Assembly: GCA_947481635.1 (NCBI GenBank)
Contig: CANKHJ010000006.1
Coordinates: 1-58,574 of the forward strand
Source of the DNA: Bradyrhizobiaceae bacterium
GTDB lineage: Bacteria; Pseudomonadota; Alphaproteobacteria; Rhizobiales; Xanthobacteraceae
Length of the DNA stretch: 58,574 nt
Direction: 5' to 3'
In this document: in pieces, positions 400 to 33,710 of the stretch
How the letters are laid out: every line of letters starts with the position of its first letter
How positions within the stretch are numbered: the stretch's first letter is position 1
Position numbers and translations under genes: made by a program
The notes under the pieces: generated by a model
What the model saw: the letters and a program-made list of their open reading frames with translations, nothing else
Told to the model about the DNA's origin: nothing
The model's database searches: none

Positions 400-2079
400 A
401 TGGCCCGCAAACTGCGCAGCAATTATCCCGAAGGCACGTCGTTGTGGGCGGTGCGACGTGCGCAGTGGCGCGCGCTCGGCCTGACCGATGAAGACATGCT
501 GAAGCCGAAGATCGCGGTGGTGAACACCTCATCCGAGCTCGCGATCTGCTTCTCGCATCTCGATGAAATCTCCAAGGCGGTGAAGGACGCGATCCGCGCG
601 GCGGGCGGCCTACCCTTCGAGATCCGTACCGCGGCGCCGTCGGACTTCATCCACAGCGCCGGCCGCGCTGGCACCTACATTCTACCGACACGCGACTTGA
701 TCACCAACGACATCGAAGTGCAGGTCGGCGGCGCGATGCTCGACGGCATGGTCTGCCTCACCTCCTGCGACAAGACCGTGCCCGGCCACCTGATGGCGGC
801 CGCGCGTCTCAACATTCCGACCATCATGATGGTGTGCGGCTATCAGCCGAGCGGCTCCTACAAGAATCATCACATGGATATCGAGGAGGTGTTCCTCGGC
901 GCCGGACACCATGTGGCCGGCAAGATCACGCTGCAGGAGCTCAAGGAGATGAGCGACAACGCCATCCTGGGCCCAGGCGTCTGTTCGGGCATGGGGACGG
1001 CCAACTCCATGCATATCGTGTGCGAAGCGCTCGGCATGTCGCTGCCCGGCGGCGCGCCGATCTTGGCCAATAGCGAGCGGATGTGGGACTTCGCACGCCG
1101 TACTGGCGCGCGCATCGTGGCGATGATCGAGGAAGACCTGCGCCCACGCGATATCATGACGCCAGAGGCCTTCGCCAATGCGGCGATGGCGATCCTCGCG
1201 GTGTCGGGCTCGATCAACTGCATCAAACACCTGCAAGCGACCGCGATCGAGGGCAAGGTCGACGTCGACGTCTATGCGCAATTCGAGAAGCTCGCCAACA
1301 CCATTCCGGTGCTGTCGGCGGTACGACCGATCGGCGACACCTCGATCGAGGCGTTCGAGGAGGCCGGCGGCGCGCTCGCGCTGATGAAGGAGCTCGAGCA
1401 ATTCGTGAACAAGGGCGCGATGACGGTGAGCGGCAAGTCCGTCGGCCAAAATCTCGCCGACGCCGATGCCTCCAAGAACGACGCGATCCGTGACGTCGGT
1501 CACGCATTGTCGAACAAGCCGGCGATCGTGATCGTGCGCGGCAGCCTCGCGCCGGAAGGCGGGATCGTGAAGCTCGGCTTGCGCGAGGGCAAACGCCTGA
1601 CCTTCTCCGGCACCGCGATCTGCTTCCCGGCCGCCGACCTCGCGATCAAGGCACTGACCGATGGCGTCATCAAGCCGGGCCATGTGGTGATCCTGCGCGG
1701 CCTCGGCGTCCAAGGGGGCCCCGGCATGGGTATGGCCTCGCGCGTGGTGTTCGCGATCGACGGCATGAATCTCGGACCGGAGGTCGCCTTCGTGACCGAT
1801 GGGCAATTGTCCGGCCTGGTGAACAAGGGCCTGGTGATCGGCGAGGTGACCCCGGAAGCCGCGATCGGCGGACCGCTCGGGCTGGTCGAAGATGGCGACC
1901 ACATCTCGATCGACATCGAGGCGCGCACCGCCAACCTCGACGTGCCGGCCGACGTGCTGGCGCAGCGGCGTGCCAAGTTCCAGAAGCCGGTGCACAAGGA
2001 CGAGGGCTGGGTGTCGATCTATCGCCGCTCGGTGCAACCCTTGTCGAAGGGCGCATCGCTGGTCGATCCGGGGCTGTAG
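400..2079 (+). CDS. IlvD/Edd family dehydratase
   Basis: A 559-residue protein of usual length for the IlvD/Edd family, which removes water from a dihydroxy-acid or sugar acid using an Fe-S cluster and Mg2+. Three probable cluster cysteines are at the family positions: Cys50 in 'SSELAICFSH', Cys123 in 'TSCDKTVPGH' (with the Mg-binding Asp-Lys pair) and Cys195 in 'GPGVCSGMGTANSM'. The C-terminal half carries the 'LAPEGGIVK' strand. The ATG follows 'AAGGTGAGACACC'. Whether it acts on 2,3-dihydroxyisovalerate (branched-chain amino acid synthesis) or on an aldonate cannot be told from sequence. Its place among catabolic genes favours a sugar-acid or other hydroxy-acid substrate. Confidence 0.92.
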   Translation: MARKLRSNYPEGTSLWAVRRAQWRALGLTDEDMLKPKIAVVNTSSELAICFSHLDEISKAVKDAIRAAGGLPFEIRTAAPSDFIHSAGRAGTYILPTRDLITNDIEVQVGGAMLDGMVCLTSCDKTVPGHLMAAARLNIPTIMMVCGYQPSGSYKNHHMDIEEVFLGAGHHVAGKITLQELKEMSDNAILGPGVCSGMGTANSMHIVCEALGMSLPGGAPILANSERMWDFARRTGARIVAMIEEDLRPRDIMTPEAFANAAMAILAVSGSINCIKHLQATAIEGKVDVDVYAQFEKLANTIPVLSAVRPIGDTSIEAFEEAGGALALMKELEQFVNKGAMTVSGKSVGQNLADADASKNDAIRDVGHALSNKPAIVIVRGSLAPEGGIVKLGLREGKRLTFSGTAICFPAADLAIKALTDGVIKPGHVVILRGLGVQGGPGMGMASRVVFAIDGMNLGPEVAFVTDGQLSGLVNKGLVIGEVTPEAAIGGPLGLVEDGDHISIDIEARTANLDVPADVLAQRRAKFQKPVHKDEGWVSIYRRSVQPLSKGASLVDPGL

Positions 2080-2115
2080 CCGCTCTCCGTCAGTTCCGTC
2101 CGCCGACCACATCCA

Positions 2116-2148
2116 CCGTCATGGCCGGGCTTGTCCCGGCCATGACGG
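2116..2148. repeat. Perfect 14-bp-arm palindromic repeat downstream of the dehydratase
   Basis: CCGTCATGGCCGGG and its exact reverse complement are separated by CTTGT. The left arm, loop and most of the right arm are identical to bases 49278-49305, so this is a dispersed element. It could also act as a transcription stop for the dehydratase gene, but no T-run follows. Confidence 0.8.
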
Positions 2149-2221
2149 GCGGAGGGTTTTGTGCCCTCTCCATGACGGTGCTCGGTTTGTACGACGGGTA
2201 GGAAAGGCGTAAACTTCGCCG

Positions 2222-3694
2222 ATGCTTGAAACCGCCGAACGTGCCGCCGCCGCTCCGCTGAATTTGCCCGCCGACGGGCTGGTCGCTGTCGTCAAGCGCG
2301 ATTGCCCGACCTGCGTGCTGGTGGCGCCGCTGATCAAGGAATTGTCGGATCGCGGCGTGCCGATCACGGTCTATTCGCAGGACGATCCGAGCTTTCCCGA
2401 TGGCCTGAGCGGCGTCCGCTATGACGACGATCTCGGCTCGTCCTTCGGCCTGAACATCGAATTCGTGCCGACCGTGATCCGCATGGAAGCCGGCCGCGAG
2501 GCCGAGCGCATCTTCGGCTGGAGTCGCGCGCAATGGCAGGCGCTGACCGGCATTCCCGATCTCGGCAAAACTCTCCCCGACATGCGCCCGGCCTGCGGAT
2601 CGAAGACCACCGATCCCGGCATGCAGGCGCGGCTCAAGGTGCGCTTCAGCCAGACCGGCCTCGCTTCGCGCCGCATTCCGGTGCCGCGCGAGATCGACCC
2701 GCTCGAACTGGTGCATGAGCGCGGCTGGAGCGATGGCCTGCCGCTGGTGCCGCCGACCGAAGAACGCGTGATGCTGATGCTCGAAGGCACCGCGCGCGAT
2801 CCGAAGGAAGTGGTCGGCCTGATGCCGCCGAACCGCGTCGAATGCACCGTCGAGAAGATCGCGATCAACGCCGTGATGGCCGGCTGCAAGCCGGAATATC
2901 TGCCGGTCGTGATCACCGCGGTCGAGGCCGCGCTGATCCCCGAATTCGGATTGCATGGCGTGCTGGCGACCACCAACGCGGTCGCGCCGGTGATCATGGT
3001 CAACGGGCCGATCGCCAAAGGCATCGGCATGAATTCCAAGGGCAACGTGCTCGGCCAAGGTTTCCGCGCCAACGCGACCATCGGGCGCGCGCTACAGCTG
3101 GTGGTGCGCAATGTCGGCGGCGGGCGCCCGCAGGAGGTCGACCGCGCGGTGTTCGGCAATCCGGGCAAATACACCTTCTGCTTCGCCGAAGACGAAGACG
3201 ACGGTATCTGGCCCACCTATGCCGAGGAACGCGGCTTCAAGCGCGGCACCTCGACGGTCACGCTGTTTCCCGGCGACGGCAACACGCCGATCATCGATCA
3301 TATCTCGCGCGAGCCGGAAGGCCTGGTGCAGTCCTATGCCGGCTGCCTGCGCTCGCTCTACAATCCCGGCCAGATCAACGACGTGTCGGCTTTCATCCTG
3401 GTGTCGCCGGAACACGCGCAGGTATTCTACGACGCTGGCTGGTCGAAACAGCGCGTCAAGGATGAACTCTACGCCCGGCTGAAACTGCGGCGCGACGAGA
3501 TCCTCGAAGGCCGCCAGGGCATCGGCAGCATGAAGCCGGAAGACCTCACCGACCCGAATCGATTGTTTCCGAAATTCCGCACCGGCAGCCTCAATCTCGC
3601 GCGCGCCGGCGGCAGCGCCGGCAAATATTCGGCGATCATCTCGGGGCTAGGCTCCATCACCATTAATCCCTGCATCAAGGAGGTCCGCTTATGA
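2222..3694 (+). CDS. Thioredoxin-fold protein with a large C-terminal domain, partner of the UGSC selenoprotein
   Basis: A 490-residue protein without signal peptide. Residues about 18-110 look like a thioredoxin fold, with a CPTC redox motif (Cys28-Cys31) and a 'VPTV' cis-proline strand near residue 83. Residues about 155-490 form a separate domain that starts with 'ERGWSDGLPLVPPT' and has the glycine-rich 'IAKGIGMNSKGN'. I recall this domain beside UGSC-family genes but cannot name an activity. The stop codon overlaps the next start (ATGA), so the two proteins are probably made together. A dithiol fold coupled to a Sec/Cys-rich protein suggests that this product reduces or cooperates with the selenoprotein, which is inference. 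The start is the first ATG after 'AGGAAAGG'. Confidence 0.75.
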   Translation: MLETAERAAAAPLNLPADGLVAVVKRDCPTCVLVAPLIKELSDRGVPITVYSQDDPSFPDGLSGVRYDDDLGSSFGLNIEFVPTVIRMEAGREAERIFGWSRAQWQALTGIPDLGKTLPDMRPACGSKTTDPGMQARLKVRFSQTGLASRRIPVPREIDPLELVHERGWSDGLPLVPPTEERVMLMLEGTARDPKEVVGLMPPNRVECTVEKIAINAVMAGCKPEYLPVVITAVEAALIPEFGLHGVLATTNAVAPVIMVNGPIAKGIGMNSKGNVLGQGFRANATIGRALQLVVRNVGGGRPQEVDRAVFGNPGKYTFCFAEDEDDGIWPTYAEERGFKRGTSTVTLFPGDGNTPIIDHISREPEGLVQSYAGCLRSLYNPGQINDVSAFILVSPEHAQVFYDAGWSKQRVKDELYARLKLRRDEILEGRQGIGSMKPEDLTDPNRLFPKFRTGSLNLARAGGSAGKYSAIISGLGSITINPCIKEVRL

Positions 3695-4227
3695 CCGAAA
3701 CATCCGCTGAAGTATTCTTGCTCGACCCGACGGCGGAATCCTCACCGGTGATGATGCCGCGGCTGAAGCGGCCGGCCTCGATCGAAGGCATGACCATCGG
3801 CCTGCTCGACATCGCCAAGCAGCGCGGCGACGTGTTCCTCGACCGGCTCGACGAACGCCTCACCACCAACGGCTTCAAGGTCGAACGCTTCGCCAAGCCG
3901 CGTTTCTCGATCGTCGCGCCCGACGCGCTGAAACAAGAGATGCAGAGCCGCGTTCAGGTGGTGATCGAAGGCCTCGCCGATTGAGGGTCCTGCACGTCGT
4001 GCTGTATGCATGACATCAAGGATCTCGAATCTCGCGGCATTCTCGCGGTCGGCGTCGCGACGACGGAATTCGTCCAGGCGGCCGCTGTGCAGAACGGCTT
4101 CCTCGGCTACGACCCGGCGGTCGTGTTCGTGCAGCACCCCATTCAAGATCGTACGGATGATGAAATCCGCGCGCTCGCGGATATTGCGTTCGACGAAATC
4201 ATGGCGAAGCTGCAAGATAAGCCATGA
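3691..4227 (+). CDS. UGSC-family selenoprotein, read through in-frame TGA
   Basis: The frame opens at ATG 3691 (overlapping the upstream stop), meets TGA at 3982-3984 and continues without interruption to TGA 4225-4227. Read with TGA as selenocysteine, the product has 178 residues with Sec98 in the motif U-G-S-C followed by T-S-C-C. This motif names the UGSC (seleno)protein family as I recall it; some members have Cys in place of Sec. Both sides of the TGA have the codon bias and periodicity of a real gene. The downstream part has no ribosome-binding site before its first ATG (4006), so it is unlikely to be a separate gene. The exact reaction is unknown. Four thiol/selenol residues within eight positions (98, 101, 104, 105) imply redox or metal chemistry. 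A conventional gene finder would end it at residue 97. Confidence 0.85.
3985..4014 (+). promoter_or_regulatory. Candidate bacterial SECIS hairpin just after the Sec codon
   Basis: Directly after the TGA, the RNA can pair GUC (3987-3989) with GAC (4012-4014) and UGCA (3991-3994) with UGCA (4007-4010), with one C-U mismatch between them. The apical loop is 12 nt and has GU at its second and third positions, as bacterial SECIS loops usually do. The loop G is about 12 nt from the UGA, closer than the 16 nt or more usual for bacterial SECIS, so the fold is only a candidate. An alternative small hairpin GCAC-GUC-GUGC (3992-4002) lies inside it. Confidence 0.4.
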
Positions 4228-4238
4228 CGTGAACTCCC

Positions 4239-4547
4239 ATGAATGCGCTTCCGCTCGGCATCGTCCTCGGCTTGATCTGCGGCGCGGCGTCGGTCGCGCT
4301 GATGCTGCCGATGTCGTTTCCCGACAAGCCGACCGCGCTGGCAGCAGCCTTCGCCAGCCGGTTTATGCTCGGGCTATTTAGCGCGACTGTGACGCTGTCG
4401 CTGCATCCGATCCTGGCCGGCGCAGTGGTCGGGCTCCTGGTCAGCATTCCAGACGCGCTGATCACCAAGGCCTATGTTCCGATTCTCGGCCTCGGGCTGG
4501 CGTTCGGGCTTATCTGCGGCGTTGCGGTCACGTACCTCCGGACCTAG
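4239..4547 (+). CDS. Small hydrophobic membrane protein of unknown function
   Basis: A 102-residue protein made almost entirely of hydrophobic stretches: about residues 4-27, 38-52, 54-70 and 80-98, so three or four membrane segments. 'GLICGAAS' near the N-terminus and 'GLICGVAV' near the C-terminus are similar and hint at an internal repeat. It begins 11 bases after the selenoprotein stop and on the same strand, so it may be the last gene of that operon. The Shine-Dalgarno sequence is weak. I do not recognise the family. Confidence 0.65.
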   Translation: MNALPLGIVLGLICGAASVALMLPMSFPDKPTALAAAFASRFMLGLFSATVTLSLHPILAGAVVGLLVSIPDALITKAYVPILGLGLAFGLICGVAVTYLRT

Positions 4548-4643
4548 TTCCGACCCATCCGGCATTTCGGGAAAAAGGCGGCTTGCCTGACGCCCGTCGC
4601 GCCCTCGTGCTATAAAATCAGACCTTCGTCGTAGTGCCCTTGC

Positions 4644-5060
4644 ATGCCGTCCGGATATCCCATCGTCGACTGCGACATCCACGCCACAGTGCCGAGCTTC
4701 AAGGTTCTGCTGCCGTATCTGGACGATTACTGGCGCGAGCATTTCGAGTCGCGCGTCACCGACAATCTTGCGCTCAACATGACCTCGTCGCCGCCGAACG
4801 CGCCGCTGTCGATCCGCCCGGACTGGAAGCCCAAGGCCGGGCTGCCGAGTTCCAAGGTCGAGGAAGTCAGCCAGCATGCGCTCGACGCCTTCGGCTCGAG
4901 TTTCAGCATCTTCAATCCGGTCGGCTTCGCGCAGGTGATGCATGCCGAGGACATGGCGGCCGTGCTGTGCCGCGCGGTCAACGACCTGATCGCCAAGAAA
5001 TGGCTCGATCGCGACCCGCGGCTGCTCTATCGCTGGTCGGATCGCGGCCGCGTCACGCGG
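4644..5060 (+). pseudogene. Amidohydrolase (PF04909-type), N-terminal third only, truncated
   Basis: The first 127 codons match the start of the intact amidohydrolase at 20276-21388 closely by eye: 'IVDCDIHATVPS', 'YLDDYWREHF', 'SSPPNAPLSIRPDW', 'LDAFGSSFSI' and 'KKWLDRDPRL' all have counterparts in the same order. Homology stops at about base 5024. The frame then runs on into arginine/serine-rich residues that are only the out-of-frame reading of the next gene. The metal-site His and Asp of the C-terminal two thirds are missing, so it cannot be an active enzyme. Confidence 0.8.
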
Positions 5061-6007
5061 CGGTTCCCGACTCGGTCATCGAAGGCGCGAAGAAGGAAGG
5101 CGCTGTGCTCTGGTATGACGGCTACGCACGCGAGGATGGCGAGAAGGTGCTGGCCGAATTCCAGAAGGCCTATCCCTTCGTCAAGAACGCCCAGTATGTC
5201 GAACTGCCGGCGGCGCAGAAACAGGCGCGGCTGACCCAGGAATGCCTCGCGGGCGGACCGACCACCGACATCTATCTCAACGGCGCCTCGACGGTGCAGC
5301 AGGTGGTGAAGCAGGGCTTCTTCCACGACGTGAACTGGAAGGAACTCGGCGTTCCCGAGGCCGCGATCGAAAGCAAGAACATGGTGTGGATCGCCACCGC
5401 CATCAATTGCGCGGTCTACAACACCCAGAAGGTGAAGGAGGCCGACGCGCCGAAGACCTGGGAAGACCTGCTCGATCCGAAATGGAAAGGCCGTGTCGGC
5501 TGCTGGCAGCGCCCTGCGGGCATCATGTATCTGTCGCCGGTTTATGGCGAGGAGAAGACCCGCGAATACGCCCGCAAGTTCGCCGTCAACGAGCCGCGGC
5601 TGTTCCCCGGCACGTTCCAGGTGTCGCAAGCGGTCGGCGCCGGCGAGGTCGATGTCGGCTTCGGCGCCGTCGACTCGGCGCAGCGCATCGTCATGCGCGG
5701 CGCGCCGCTGAAGATCCTGGTGCTGGAGCCGGTGCCGCTCTCCCTGCTCTATGCCGGCCTGGTGAAATTCGGCAAGAACCCGAATACCGGCAAGCTGCTG
5801 ATCTCATGGCTCGAGACCAAGGACGGCGCGATGGCGTTTGAAAACGCCACGCAACGCGGCCATCTGCCGGTGAAGGAAACCAAGACCGCGCAGTTGCTGG
5901 AGGGCAAGAAGCACTCCTATTACGGCGCGCAATACGAAATCGAGAAGTCCGACCACCTCAACGCGTTCGAGGCGGAGCTCGCGAAGATCATTGCGCGGCG
6001 GGGGTAA
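5060..6007 (+). pseudogene. Extracellular solute-binding protein lacking its N-terminus, fused to the amidohydrolase remnant
   Basis: From about 5060 the +2 frame reads a nearly complete periplasmic binding protein of the iron/polyamine (type 2) class. It starts with 'VPDSVIEGAKKEGAVLWYD', continues with 'TWEDLLDPKWKGRVG' and ends 'AFEAELAKIIARRG' before TAA. The signal peptide and start codon that should precede it are gone, replaced by the amidohydrolase fragment in another frame. The open frame can be extended upstream to an ATG at 4634, but those residues are a shifted reading of the amidohydrolase. Without export signal it should not work as a receptor. It may once have served the transporter whose ATPase ends at 283. 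Confidence 0.75.
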
Positions 6008-6029: not shown

Positions 6030-7085
6030 TTACGCCGCGCGAAGCGCCGCGTTGCCCTGCCCGCCGACGATCACCGGTGCGGCGCCAATCCATGGACCGT
6101 GCGGCAACAGCAGCCGCGCAGTGACCACCGCGAGCGATCCCTCCGCGAACGCAACGTCGCCGCCGGTTTCGGAGACCTTCTCGAGCGGGTAACTGCCGAC
6201 GCAGCTTTCCGCGATATAGCCCTCGATGTCCGGATGGACGAACTGCGCCGAGAACGGCTGGCCCGGCTTGAGTCCAGCGAGCGCCTGCGCGAACCAGGCA
6301 TCCGCATCACGATCCGCAGCATCCTGCGAGAAGGTGCGCGCGCGGCGCACCCAGATGCCTTTGTAGGCAACCGAGGCACGCACCGCGAAACGCGATCCGA
6401 GCGGGGCCGCACCGGACACCCGCGCGAACGCGGCGCGTTCCGCAAGATCGACGGCGATGTGGACATAGGCTTCTTCGGCGCCGGCGAGTCGCGCGGCCTT
6501 CTCGACCGCGCCGACCACGGCGCCGGCGTCCCGCATCGTGGCGACGTCGACCTGCGCCAGCGCGTCGGTCGCGATCGTGTTCGCCTTCGCCAGCAGTCCG
6601 CGCTCGGCGTCGTCGATCACACGGCGCGCTTCGGCGAACGCCTTGCCGCCCTCGACCAGGACAACCTGCGGCGCGGCTTCGGTCAGGTCCTCGTAGAGAC
6701 CATTCGGCAGCGCATCCATTTCGAGAATGCCGATGCGCTTGATGGTCGGATCGGCCGCGACACGCTCGCCGACCGTCTTGCCCGGCCGCATCGTATTGAC
6801 CAGTTCGCCGACCGGCTTCACCGAATTGATCCACTTCGCGACGCGCTTCGACAGCGCGGTGGCGAACACCGGCTCGCCCTCGCGCGGCACATAGAGCAGC
6901 GCATCGGCCCAGTAAGGCGTGAAAGCCGTGACCCAGGTCACCGCGCTCGGCCGCGGAAAATTGGTGTACATGATCAGCGCATCGAGATTCTGCGCGCGCA
7001 TCGCGGCGCGCAGCCGCGTCAGCCGCTCGGCCAGCGCGGAGGCCGGCACTTCATCGGTATTCCAGGCCATCAAGCCGCGACGCAT
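6030..7085 (-). CDS. M24/creatinase-fold protein, probably non-metal (degenerate peptidase)
   Basis: A 351-residue protein with a creatinase-type N-terminal domain ('RLTRLRAAMRAQNLDALIMYTNFPRPSAVTWVT'; split here only for description) and a C-terminal pita-bread-like domain. That domain shows none of the usual five M24 metal ligands (Asp, Asp, His, Glu, Glu) in recognisable context. It is the last gene of the minus-strand transporter/hydantoinase operon, 12 bases after a second M24-like gene. A pair of divergent M24 subunits could form one enzyme that acts on an open-chain amide released by HyuAB. Creatinase itself is a metal-free member of the fold. The activity is unknown. Confidence 0.75.
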   Translation of the reverse strand: MRRGLMAWNTDEVPASALAERLTRLRAAMRAQNLDALIMYTNFPRPSAVTWVTAFTPYWADALLYVPREGEPVFATALSKRVAKWINSVKPVGELVNTMRPGKTVGERVAADPTIKRIGILEMDALPNGLYEDLTEAAPQVVLVEGGKAFAEARRVIDDAERGLLAKANTIATDALAQVDVATMRDAGAVVGAVEKAARLAGAEEAYVHIAVDLAERAAFARVSGAAPLGSRFAVRASVAYKGIWVRRARTFSQDAADRDADAWFAQALAGLKPGQPFSAQFVHPDIEGYIAESCVGSYPLEKVSETGGDVAFAEGSLAVVTARLLLPHGPWIGAAPVIVGGQGNAALRAA

Positions 7086-31117: not shown

Positions 31118-32572
31118 TCACGGCAGGAAATCCCTCAGGTTCACGCTCGAAAAATTCTTTGGCATGGCCATGTCAAACTTCACGCGCTCCGCAGGCTCGG
31201 TGAGCGGCCCCTTGGTAGCGTCTATCATCCAACGTGTGCCAACGCGCTGACGCCCTGTATTGCCGACCAAAGGCGAAGCGCTATCGAGGGCCCAGACCTT
31301 CACATTCGGAAGAAAAATGACATCCCGATCAGCACGTACGCGACTGGCGATGGACCACATGATCTGACGAACGTCTGAAACGTCGATGTCTTCGTCGACG
31401 GCGATTGCCAGTTTCGGCTGCTGATAGGGTCCGGAAAGAGCCGCCATCAAAGCAATTTTTGCTTCCCCTTCCATCCGTGGGCGCATCTTGATGACGATCG
31501 CGAACAAACCGGAAATGGTAAGCAGCCTGACGTCCAGCAGGTCCAGACCGCCATCAACCTTCTGAAGATGCTCTCGCGTTGCGATCTCAATCCCAAGGCC
31601 GGTTGTGGACTGCGTATCCGTAACGGGAAATCCGCAGTGCAGCGCGTAATAGATAGCGTCGTGTCGCCGCGTGATTGCCTTCAGCCGAAACACATGCGAC
31701 ATTTTTTTTCCGGGATAAGTCCCGGTCACTTCGCCAAACGGACCTTCGGCTTCCAGATGATTGCCGGGAATTATTTCTCCTTCCAAAACAATTTCAGCGT
31801 CAGCCGGAACGTTTAAATCTATCGTCTCACAGCGCACCGTGCGGACCGGTTCTTTCAACAGCCCGCCTGCTAGCTCAAGCTCATCGACCTCAAACGCCGT
31901 CGTATAGCCAGAGGCAAACCAGATCGCCGGGTGCACGCCGATGACAACCGCGACAGGAGTCGGCTCGCCACGTTGAGAATATTTCTCATATATCCGCGAT
32001 GCGTGCCGGGGAAGAATGGCGAATCCAGTCGTATCCTTCCCCCGGACCTCCATCCGGTGGAACGACAGATTGCCTATCCCCGTATCGGGGTCTTTCATGA
32101 AGGCGATACCCGACGGAATGTATCGCCCGGAATCACGCTCGGAGACTATGGCAGCAGGAATATCTCGCAGGTCGGCGTCATCGCCGAGAAATTTCAGCTG
32201 CTTGACGGGCGCGGATGCTGCGTCAACCAATTGAGATGCGATGGGCGATTGAAGTCTACGACCAATCTCCCCGTGCAGATGGTCCTCATCTATTTCAAGG
32301 CCTATCGCCCATTTCTTGCGATCGGCGATGATCTGACTACACGCCCTCCAGCCGGGATGACCTTCGATATTTGTGAAAAGGCTCGACTTACCCAGCTCGG
32401 CATATGTCTTCCATTCGATAGCCGACATATTCTTTTCCGGGTCGACAGGCTTGTCGAACCGAACAAGTTCGCCGCTTTCTTCGAGCGCCGCCAAATGAGT
32501 CCGGTAGGATTGATCCCGAGTCGCTTTCTTTTGCTCGGTTGAACGAGCAGACTTTTCATCTAATTTTTTCAT
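31118..32572 (-). CDS. UbiD family decarboxylase
   Basis: A 484-residue UbiD-type enzyme, which uses prenylated FMN to decarboxylate (or carboxylate) aromatic or alpha,beta-unsaturated acids. It has the conserved 'LEAEGPFGEVTGTYPG' segment with the catalytic Glu, 'ARIYEKYSQRGEPTPVAVVIG' upstream and the C-terminal 'VGTRWMIDATK'. The N-terminus is lysine-rich ('MKKLDEKSARSTEQKKATRD'). The prFMN synthase UbiX is not in the window and must be supplied elsewhere. Base composition is lower in GC than its neighbours, suggesting transfer together with the adjacent Bug receptor. Confidence 0.92.
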   Translation of the reverse strand: MKKLDEKSARSTEQKKATRDQSYRTHLAALEESGELVRFDKPVDPEKNMSAIEWKTYAELGKSSLFTNIEGHPGWRACSQIIADRKKWAIGLEIDEDHLHGEIGRRLQSPIASQLVDAASAPVKQLKFLGDDADLRDIPAAIVSERDSGRYIPSGIAFMKDPDTGIGNLSFHRMEVRGKDTTGFAILPRHASRIYEKYSQRGEPTPVAVVIGVHPAIWFASGYTTAFEVDELELAGGLLKEPVRTVRCETIDLNVPADAEIVLEGEIIPGNHLEAEGPFGEVTGTYPGKKMSHVFRLKAITRRHDAIYYALHCGFPVTDTQSTTGLGIEIATREHLQKVDGGLDLLDVRLLTISGLFAIVIKMRPRMEGEAKIALMAALSGPYQQPKLAIAVDEDIDVSDVRQIMWSIASRVRADRDVIFLPNVKVWALDSASPLVGNTGRQRVGTRWMIDATKGPLTEPAERVKFDMAMPKNFSSVNLRDFLP

Positions 32573-32660
32573 CTCAGCGGGTCCTCACGGAGGTGGATCA
32601 ACAGAGCCGGAGACGCGTGGTCAGCGGCACCTGACTTGCAAGCCTGGAAGAAACTGCTTT

Positions 32661-33623
32661 TCACTCCAGCTTGATGTTCTCCGCCCGAACCACCGGCTCC
32701 CATCGCGCCAACTCGGCAGCCATGAATCGACTCATATCCTGCGGCGTTCCCCGGATCGCGTGCATGCCCAGGACAGGAAAGAGCTGCTGTGCCTCTTGGC
32801 TGTCTAAGAATTCGCTGACCAGCGTGTTAATTCTCTCGACGATGGAGGCAGGCATTCCCGCAGGGCCCATGATGCCGAACCAGGTACCAGCCACGAGATC
32901 ATAACCCGACTCTTTGAGAGTCGGTACGTTGGGAAGAGTTTTCAGCCGCTCGGATGACGATACGGCCAACATCTTTGACTGTTCAACCTGCGGAACAAAT
33001 CCAGGAAAGCCAGCTTCGATTTGGCCGCCCAAGACGTCGGTGATCAGCTGCGCCGAGCCTCTATAGGTCACATGAGTCACTTGAATATTGGCGGCTCGCG
33101 CCAAAGACACAGCGGCGATGTGCGCCATCGTGCCATTGCCGCTATTTCCGATGTTCAAGCTGCCTTTCGCTTTTGCAAGCTCGACCAGTTGCTGGATATT
33201 CGATACCGGCAGGTTCGGGGTTGCTATGAGGACCTGGGGTATGATGCCGATCATGGCGATTGGCGTGAAGTCGACAGCAGGGTCGAACGATAGATTTTTA
33301 TAAAGCAGCTTGTTTGTAACCGCAGGTCCGGTTGAGGTGAGAAAGAGCGTATAGCCATCCGGCGCCGCCCTCGCCACTGCCGCTGCAGCGATATTACCTG
33401 CCGCTCCGCCGCGATTTTCGATGACCACTTGTTTGCCAAGCTGCTTGGACAGCATGCCGGCGATAGGACGTCCGATACCGTCGGTGGACCCACCAGCGGG
33501 GAAGGGAATGACCAGCGTAATATTCCTGTCGGGCCACGATTGACTCATTGCAGCAGACGGCAGCGCGATAGCCACAATTGTCGTCAGCAGCGACAGCATC
33601 GATGCCGTTCCTGATCTCCGCAT
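32661..33623 (-). CDS. Bug/TctC family substrate receptor
   Basis: A 320-residue receptor. ATG 33623 is chosen because GGAGG lies 5 bases upstream; an in-frame ATG at 33641 precedes that site. The signal peptide ends near 'SAAMSQS', and the mature part begins 'WPDRNITLVIPFPAGGSTD' with 'VIENRGGAAGN'. It is 88 bases upstream of ubiD on the same strand and shares its lower GC. The receptor plausibly captures the acid that UbiD decarboxylates. It is clearly a diverged copy, not a recent duplicate of the 22724-23695 receptor. Confidence 0.92.
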   Translation of the reverse strand: MRRSGTASMLSLLTTIVAIALPSAAMSQSWPDRNITLVIPFPAGGSTDGIGRPIAGMLSKQLGKQVVIENRGGAAGNIAAAAVARAAPDGYTLFLTSTGPAVTNKLLYKNLSFDPAVDFTPIAMIGIIPQVLIATPNLPVSNIQQLVELAKAKGSLNIGNSGNGTMAHIAAVSLARAANIQVTHVTYRGSAQLITDVLGGQIEAGFPGFVPQVEQSKMLAVSSSERLKTLPNVPTLKESGYDLVAGTWFGIMGPAGMPASIVERINTLVSEFLDSQEAQQLFPVLGMHAIRGTPQDMSRFMAAELARWEPVVRAENIKLE

Positions 33624-33710
33624 GCATTCCTCCCTCAGCATTCAAACGCCTTCTCATCGGCGAGTTCACGTCCTCATTCAGCTACACAATGCGCGCCTCG
33701 ACGTCACGGA

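Follow-up and report, generated by a model that had tools for sequence, protein, structure and literature searches.

The stretch of DNA analysed here, called the window throughout, comprises 58,574 nucleotides from a Bradyrhizobiaceae bacterium and carries a module of two overlapping genes, a partner gene followed by a gene for a UGSC-family selenoprotein (table 1). The module comes after an IlvD/Edd-type dehydratase, with which the partner and UGSC genes possibly form one operon, and the TOBE end of an ABC transporter ATPase. The ATG of the UGSC gene at 3691 shares the sequence ATGA with the stop codon of the partner. With the in-frame TGA translated as U, the frame runs for 97 residues, U98 and a further 80 residues before its own TGA stop; from Sec98 onwards the protein reads U98-G-S-C-T-S-C-C.

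Table 1. Features of the partner–UGSC module and its upstream neighbour (window coordinates).
Feature	Position	Strand	Basis or detail
IlvD/Edd-type dehydratase, directly 5' of the module	400..2079	+	possibly same operon
Partner gene (490 aa), sharing ATGA with the start of UGSC	2222..3694	+	near UGSC in most loci
Thioredoxin-fold domain of the partner (predicted), about residues 10-111, C28-P-T-C31	2249..2554	+	predicted structure, alignment
Shine-Dalgarno AAGGAGG, preceding ATG 3691	3677..3683	+	read from sequence
UGSC-family selenoprotein gene	3691..4227	+	178 aa through TGA98; stop TGA 4225-4227
TGA codon read as selenocysteine 98, U of U-G-S-C	3982..3984	+	
SECIS-like two-part hairpin directly 3' of UGA	3985..4025	+	folding, loop codon
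Hairpin outer stem	3985-3991/4019-4025	+	folding
Hairpin inner stem	3996-4002/4008-4014	+	folding
Hairpin loop, conserved GU at 4004-4005	4003-4007	+	loop codon comparison

A preliminary description of this DNA had placed the TGA at the first position of a U-G-S-C motif and proposed that read-through yields a single protein of 178 residues. Translation from ATG 3691 confirms the frame, and family matches span both halves of the joined product: PF24696 covers residues 10-175 (E 1.9e-35, 123 bits against a cut-off of 25) and NF041046, 'UGSC family (seleno)protein', covers residues 33-174 at 133.8 bits, above its cut-off of 125 (E 4.4e-39). With the curated cut-off passed and the U/C-G-S-C motif present with its in-frame UGA, the protein belongs to this family, and homologues align on both sides of residue 98, in the family profiles as in the alignment of Sec sequences. 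The 81 codons said to continue past the TGA are indeed there if the stop is counted, leaving 80 residues. The Cys residues noted at +3, +6 and +7 are likewise all present (C101, C104 and C105), but the last is not conserved, the +7 residue being Ser in 17 of 28 Sec UGSC genes. C101 and C104 are invariant in 27 aligned Sec sequences, which include the window's own and were picked by motif; C104 is absent from the UGSC proteins of Paracoccus, Acidovorax and Variovorax. Profile searches also gave a weak UGSC match to DUF116, under the cut-off (E 0.025), and PDB sequence searches with UGSC, the partner and sets A1 and A2 gave no meaningful match. Annotation can split such genes, as the preliminary description had expected: in Paracoccus ferrooxidans CP038202.1 one UGSC is entered as two adjacent 'hypothetical proteins' (6396-6683 and 6723-6965 of locus L126) that make a single UGSC when joined through the TGA.

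The sequence supports the prediction that the TGA at 3982-3984 encodes selenocysteine, as the preliminary description had proposed, on the strength of the sel genes, the recurrence of the TGA, its replacement by Cys and a hairpin. In profile searches of the source genome, selA, selB, selC and selD were all found over the cut-off (SelA 555.6, SelB 420.1 and SelD 430.2 bits), with tRNA-Sec (selC, anticodon tca) adjoining selA on contig C44. Across 385 genomes of the class, 40 held a UGSC match, with at most eight per genome and 100 in all. Counted by hand, 94 of these 100 matches contain exactly one in-frame TGA and six have none, which excludes a chance origin; that the TGA coincides with the motif position was verified in 28 stand-alone and 18 fused loci. 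A strong SelA match (>260 bits, a line set after the next match was seen at 64 bits) was present in 34 of the 35 genomes with a TGA-type UGSC versus 22 of 350 others (Fisher 1e-32, kinship ignored), and the sole TGA-type genome without one, G011, is 77% complete. A genome scan recovered 28 homologues in which a Cys codon (TGC or TGT) takes the very place of the TGA; the scan pattern demanded Cys, so that Sec forms were excluded by design and these counts carry no Sec:Cys ratio.

Bacterial SECIS elements have a conserved G in the loop just 3' of the UGA. The 48 bases from 3979 fold with an energy of -20.3 kcal/mol (z -3.33), equalled by 2 of 200 shuffles. We compared the resulting hairpin across 28 Sec genes, a set that omits L034 and L044, where the strict motif was unmatched. 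The loop codon at +7 is AGT or TGT (NGT) in 28 of 28 Sec UGSC genes versus none of 28 Cys genes, in which it is TCG (13), TCC (6), TCT (4), AGC (3), TCA (1) or ACC (1). Of the 28 Sec sequences, all form pairs +16:+30, +18:+28, +19:+27 and +20:+26, and 25 form +17:+29; three of these pairs also form in most Cys sequences (27/27, 24/27 and 25/27), where the protein motif alone dictates them. The seven-pair inner stem is formed in 90% of Sec versus 72% of Cys cells, and the mean folding z against codon resampling is -1.28 for Sec genes and -0.28 for Cys genes. The hairpin columns are nearly invariant; they therefore offer little covariation, and the loop codon carries more weight. An Rfam search of positions 2000-6000 returned no SECIS-type match (one chance row).

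Mechanical ORF calling divides the UGSC gene into products of 97 and 73 aa, and it is these ORFs from automatic gene finding that would suit a TGA acting as a real stop, or arising by error, with two short proteins or a pseudogene as the outcome. Against such a reading stand the conserved TGA, the Cys replacement, the hairpin and the Sec machinery, and we regard it as extremely improbable. A base error at 3982-3984, which would have undermined the original proposal, is very unlikely because many genomes carry the same TGA with a matching hairpin.

Pfam and NCBIfam searches found no family for the partner. It is genetically linked to UGSC: all 28 Cys loci have a partner match nearby, as do 28 of the 30 Sec loci, one of them the window's own. 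No partner match came from L049 or from L032, which lies close to the start of its contig; in L047 the match is a short, weak fragment where the contig begins. A second partner gene comes after in 9 of 18 loci of one sampled set, and on haloarchaeal plasmids the gene order is partner, UGSC, partner. The AlphaFold2 model of the partner (pLDDT 79.6) predicts that the protein carries a thioredoxin domain: residues ~10-111 match thioredoxins in structure (best Z 10.2, rmsd 3.2, 104 aligned), the structure lists barely probing the protein beyond this segment, and by eye 22 of 26 aligned rows show a CxxC motif. A larger alignment has 117 rows, in which some genes appear twice; almost every row keeps D171, C222 and E323, and the loop at 245-262 is highly variable.

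Thioredoxin-system genes also lie beside some modules. Arthrobacter has stand-alone trxB, trxA, partner and UGSC genes in a row, Roseovarius the order partner-UGSC-trxB, and Variovorax a trxB three genes 5' of the partner; a free TrxA can adjoin a partner that has no fused thioredoxin domain (L097, L098 and L128). In a tblastn search with two TrxB queries taken from module loci (L127 and L128; E <1e-20), 20 of the 79 module loci, spanning 1.20 Mb, had a TrxB-like gene, compared with a single one of the 41 control stretches, which span 0.84 Mb (1.4 expected). The 20 loci include the two that supplied the queries, four from Methylobacterium and two with hits 4-6 kb off, and the controls comprised 40 stretches of class genomes and the remainder of the window, the named genomes having no controls of their own. 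The TrxB-like hits of fused modules are 30-36% identical to the queries and are therefore better called TrxB-type reductases than certain thioredoxin reductases. No TrxB-like match was found in the window by tblastn. The grd operons, too, occur with trxA and trxB.

In 18 of 23 fused-type loci, UGSC and partner are a single chain read with one Sec codon. The source genome itself has such UGSC/partner fusions on contigs C31 and C46. The C31 fusion (L101, 7744-9642, minus strand) has the motif U-G-T-C, the same four residues as PrdB. On C46 (L100) the order is a TrxB-like gene, a Sec-type UGSC/partner fusion with the motif U-S-T-C, and selB; the TrxB-like match lies 62 bases from the UGSC fusion match. 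On a conjugative IncP plasmid of Acidovorax sp. T1, a Sec-type fusion (L125, 6425-8986) lies 3' of two transposase genes and is covered only in a short piece by annotated genes. Fusions in Sporomusa and Vibrio europaeus carry M-G-T-S instead of U-G-S-C (L130, 6311-8035, and L132, 6422-8107); they keep both domains and lie near aconitase X and DUF126. Part of the family is therefore incapable of selenol/thiol redox chemistry at this position, and the fold must also serve some function that needs neither group there.

The AlphaFold2 model of the UGSC domain (pLDDT 92.3, pTM 0.85) has five alternating strands and helices and places Sec98 between the strand 90-96 and the helix 99-114, which suggests a flavodoxin-like fold. 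The Foldseek and VIA matches listed include flavodoxin, TIR, CheY and PurE types, and no thioredoxin was among the best 50 Foldseek and 50 VIA matches listed. The best VIA match had Z 11.1 over 125 aligned residues (rmsd 3.0). The second, with Z 11.0 over 134 aligned residues (rmsd 3.7), is chain 8s7v_H of an MCR activation complex (16% identity); it was not accepted as a relative because it is tied with unrelated folds.

Judged from profile comparisons, UGSC is a remote homologue of PrdB, the 26-kDa Sec subunit of D-proline reductase, its Sec aligned on the Sec or Cys of PrdB. All UGSC proteins (73 sequences) against PrdB plus GRDB-like sequences gave a probability of 93%, E 2.9e-7 and a score of 56.3, set against a maximum of 22.0 in 50 column shuffles. 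The fused forms against six PrdB alone gave 95.5% (E 1.5e-8); stand-alone UGSC gave 79% (E 1.5e-5) against the combined PrdB and GRDB-like set, 51.8% (E 1.5e-4) against PrdB alone and 19% (E 0.0012) against GRDB-like sequences alone. With the motif masked on both sides, the 73 UGSC sequences still matched the GRDB-like set with a score of 37.2 (E 1.4e-4), the highest of 60 shuffles being 20.8; 18 decoys from neighbour families, unmasked, scored at most 26.6. Each of the six PrdB outscored all 88 real decoy proteins with all three UGSC profiles (31.9-40.2, 42.0-60.1 and 29.2-31.9, with the best decoy at 23.8); the decoys were chosen without regard to a flavodoxin-like fold. Smaller early alignments compared with hhalign had given weaker values (21%, E 0.001; 1.9%, E 0.025), the stronger ones following the addition of fused forms and PrdB sequences. 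The comparison used rows of set A3 shorter than 260 aa, and the fused set omits L145, L149, L150, L130 and L132, which have no Sec/Cys motif or the wrong frame. Four PrdB sequences were annotated as prdB on plasmid records (Peptoclostridium, Terrisporobacter, Enterococcus and Ligilactobacillus) and two were recognized by similarity in unannotated plasmid stretches (Acetoanaerobium and Paraclostridium); four of the six have Sec (UGTC) and two Cys (CGTC). The UGSC protein has no direct match to PF07355 at E up to 10, and the PF07355 model ends about where the Sec lies. PF07355 matches (PrdB/GRDB-like Sec or Cys proteins, L052-L071) occur in 30 of 289 class genomes.

We also considered the partner as a PrdA/GrdE pyruvoyl protein. 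Its score against three PrdA, 16.2, falls inside the shuffle null; by this method the partner shows no relation to PrdA, so that this reading was rejected and the chemistry of PrdB is not simply transferable to UGSC, although a PrdA may be encoded elsewhere. PF09338, the GrdE/PrdA family, matched in 0 of 289 class genomes, the source included, and no control genome matched either.

Gene neighbourhoods lend modest support to a role of UGSC modules in the catabolism of small acids. Around Cys modules (80 of 98 neighbours) we found GntR/FCD (8) and AraC (8) regulators, SDF symporters (5), BKACE (4) and TctC (3), and plasmid modules lie near CoA transferases and TRAP and TctC-type transporters. 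Neighbours of Sec modules are mixed (86 families over 67 proteins, the commonest in three), and a search among all 67 for a common operon substrate found no shared family; it is because of this mixture that support for catabolism stays modest. Elsewhere in the window, within 4634-6007, an amidohydrolase N-terminal remnant in the frame of 4644-5234 runs out of frame into a solute-binding protein (SBP_bac_6) encoded by an overlapping ORF, an arrangement that resembles a deletion junction, a frameshift or an assembly join at about 5070. A UbiD decarboxylase and its upstream neighbour (31118-33641) have third-position GC of 0.60 and 0.65, against 0.74-0.92 for most window ORFs, and this stretch is possibly a recent acquisition.

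Taken together, we think that UGSC and its partner probably work as a reductase that depends on thioredoxin and acts on a small organic compound imported for catabolism; the best reading of the module is a thioredoxin-driven selenol reductase without the pyruvoyl partner of PrdB. In such an enzyme, the substrate would be bound between UGSC and the partner's C-terminal domain, with its conserved D171, C222 and E323, and would be attacked by Sec98, which sits where a helix of the predicted flavodoxin-like fold begins. The selenenyl intermediate would close to an Se-S bond with C101 (UxxC), which the CPTC of the partner's thioredoxin domain would reopen, with NADPH feeding electrons via thioredoxin reductase. 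The variable loop at 245-262 may set the substrate, and candidate bonds to be broken are C-N, C-S, C-halogen or others.

The same UxxC, thioredoxin domain and TrxB neighbours would suit any thiol redox enzyme, including a Sec-based peroxide or disulfide reductase for stress defence, reduced by thioredoxin and oxidized by peroxide or a protein disulfide. The available text of PMC13188914 and PMC2398784 places UGSC with proteins of thioredoxin-like fold, which would favour such an enzyme; the predicted UGSC model speaks against that grouping, as far as a prediction can, being flavodoxin-like and with no thioredoxin among the best 50 Foldseek and 50 VIA matches listed. The nearest sequence relatives found, PrdB and GRDB, are substrate reductases, a single genome can hold as many as eight matches, and the neighbours belong to transport, regulation and acid catabolism rather than to stress genes, all of which makes a stress reductase unlikely. 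Also unlikely, in our estimate, is a lyase, racemase or isomerase in which Sec or Cys serves as nucleophile or acid/base and redox partners only keep the selenol reduced. The M-G-T-S variants, with both domains kept in the absence of Sec or Cys and with aconitase X and DUF126 nearby, would fit such an enzyme, and so would the IlvD dehydratase adjoining the window module. Yet in the 27 Sec and 28 Cys sequences aligned, which were selected by motif, the site is as a rule U or C followed by Cys at +3, and the dedicated thioredoxin domain and TrxB enrichment also point away from non-redox chemistry.

Extending the reductase reading to the family, UGSC modules might be a third, pyruvoyl-free class of selenol reductase beside glycine and proline reductase, a view we hold tentatively and at less than even confidence. 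Each would consist of a minimal PrdB-like Sec domain and a partner, wired to thioredoxin by a fused domain or by trxA/trxB, and the many paralogues in bacteria and haloarchaea would each be tuned to a substrate by the partner loop. The selenoprotein itself is ordinary, belonging to a known family; its surroundings are what is informative about a long-standing unknown family. With the PrdB link, the near-constant partner and the thioredoxin wiring, a family of 'unknown function' becomes an enzyme open to testing, its subunits and electron donor named and its candidate substrates supplied by the adjoining genes.

UGSC selenoproteins have been in print since at least 2008, when 255 Sec sequences in the GOS metagenome placed them among the commoner environmental selenoprotein families, according to the available text of PMC2398784; the domain 'Unknown_1' described there as fused to UGSC may be the partner domain. 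The family is also mentioned in the accessible parts of PMC9312934, PMC7539508 and PMC5029168, and a 2026 review, in the portion available, assigns it no function (PMC13188914). In the UGSC literature at hand, mostly outside subscription journals, we found no link of UGSC to PrdB and no reaction for UGSC. The preliminary description's remark that the redox cluster has no known reaction thus still holds for that literature, though the relation to PrdB now narrows the possible chemistry.

Compared with known systems, the window's gene is a further member of an already known selenoprotein family: it agrees with UGSC as defined by NF041046 and PF24696, and as described in the available text of PMC2398784, in its full-length match, its motif and the existence of Sec and Cys forms, with no defining difference. 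Thioredoxin-fold selenoproteins (Prx-, Trx- and Grx-like) share with it the UxxC motif and the thioredoxin link; the fold of UGSC, in contrast, is predicted to be flavodoxin-like. To PrdB and to GrdB of glycine reductase (PF07355) the likeness is a remote homology over 68-134 columns, with Sec aligned on the PrdB Sec/Cys and a shared UxxC; the UGSCTSC of UGSC also fits the UxxCxxC given for GrdB in the accessible part of PMC13188914. UGSC differs from PrdB/GrdB in being shorter (178 aa) and in having no direct PF07355 match, and its adjacent partner, which shows no profile relation to the pyruvoyl protein PrdA, is predicted to carry the thioredoxin domain.
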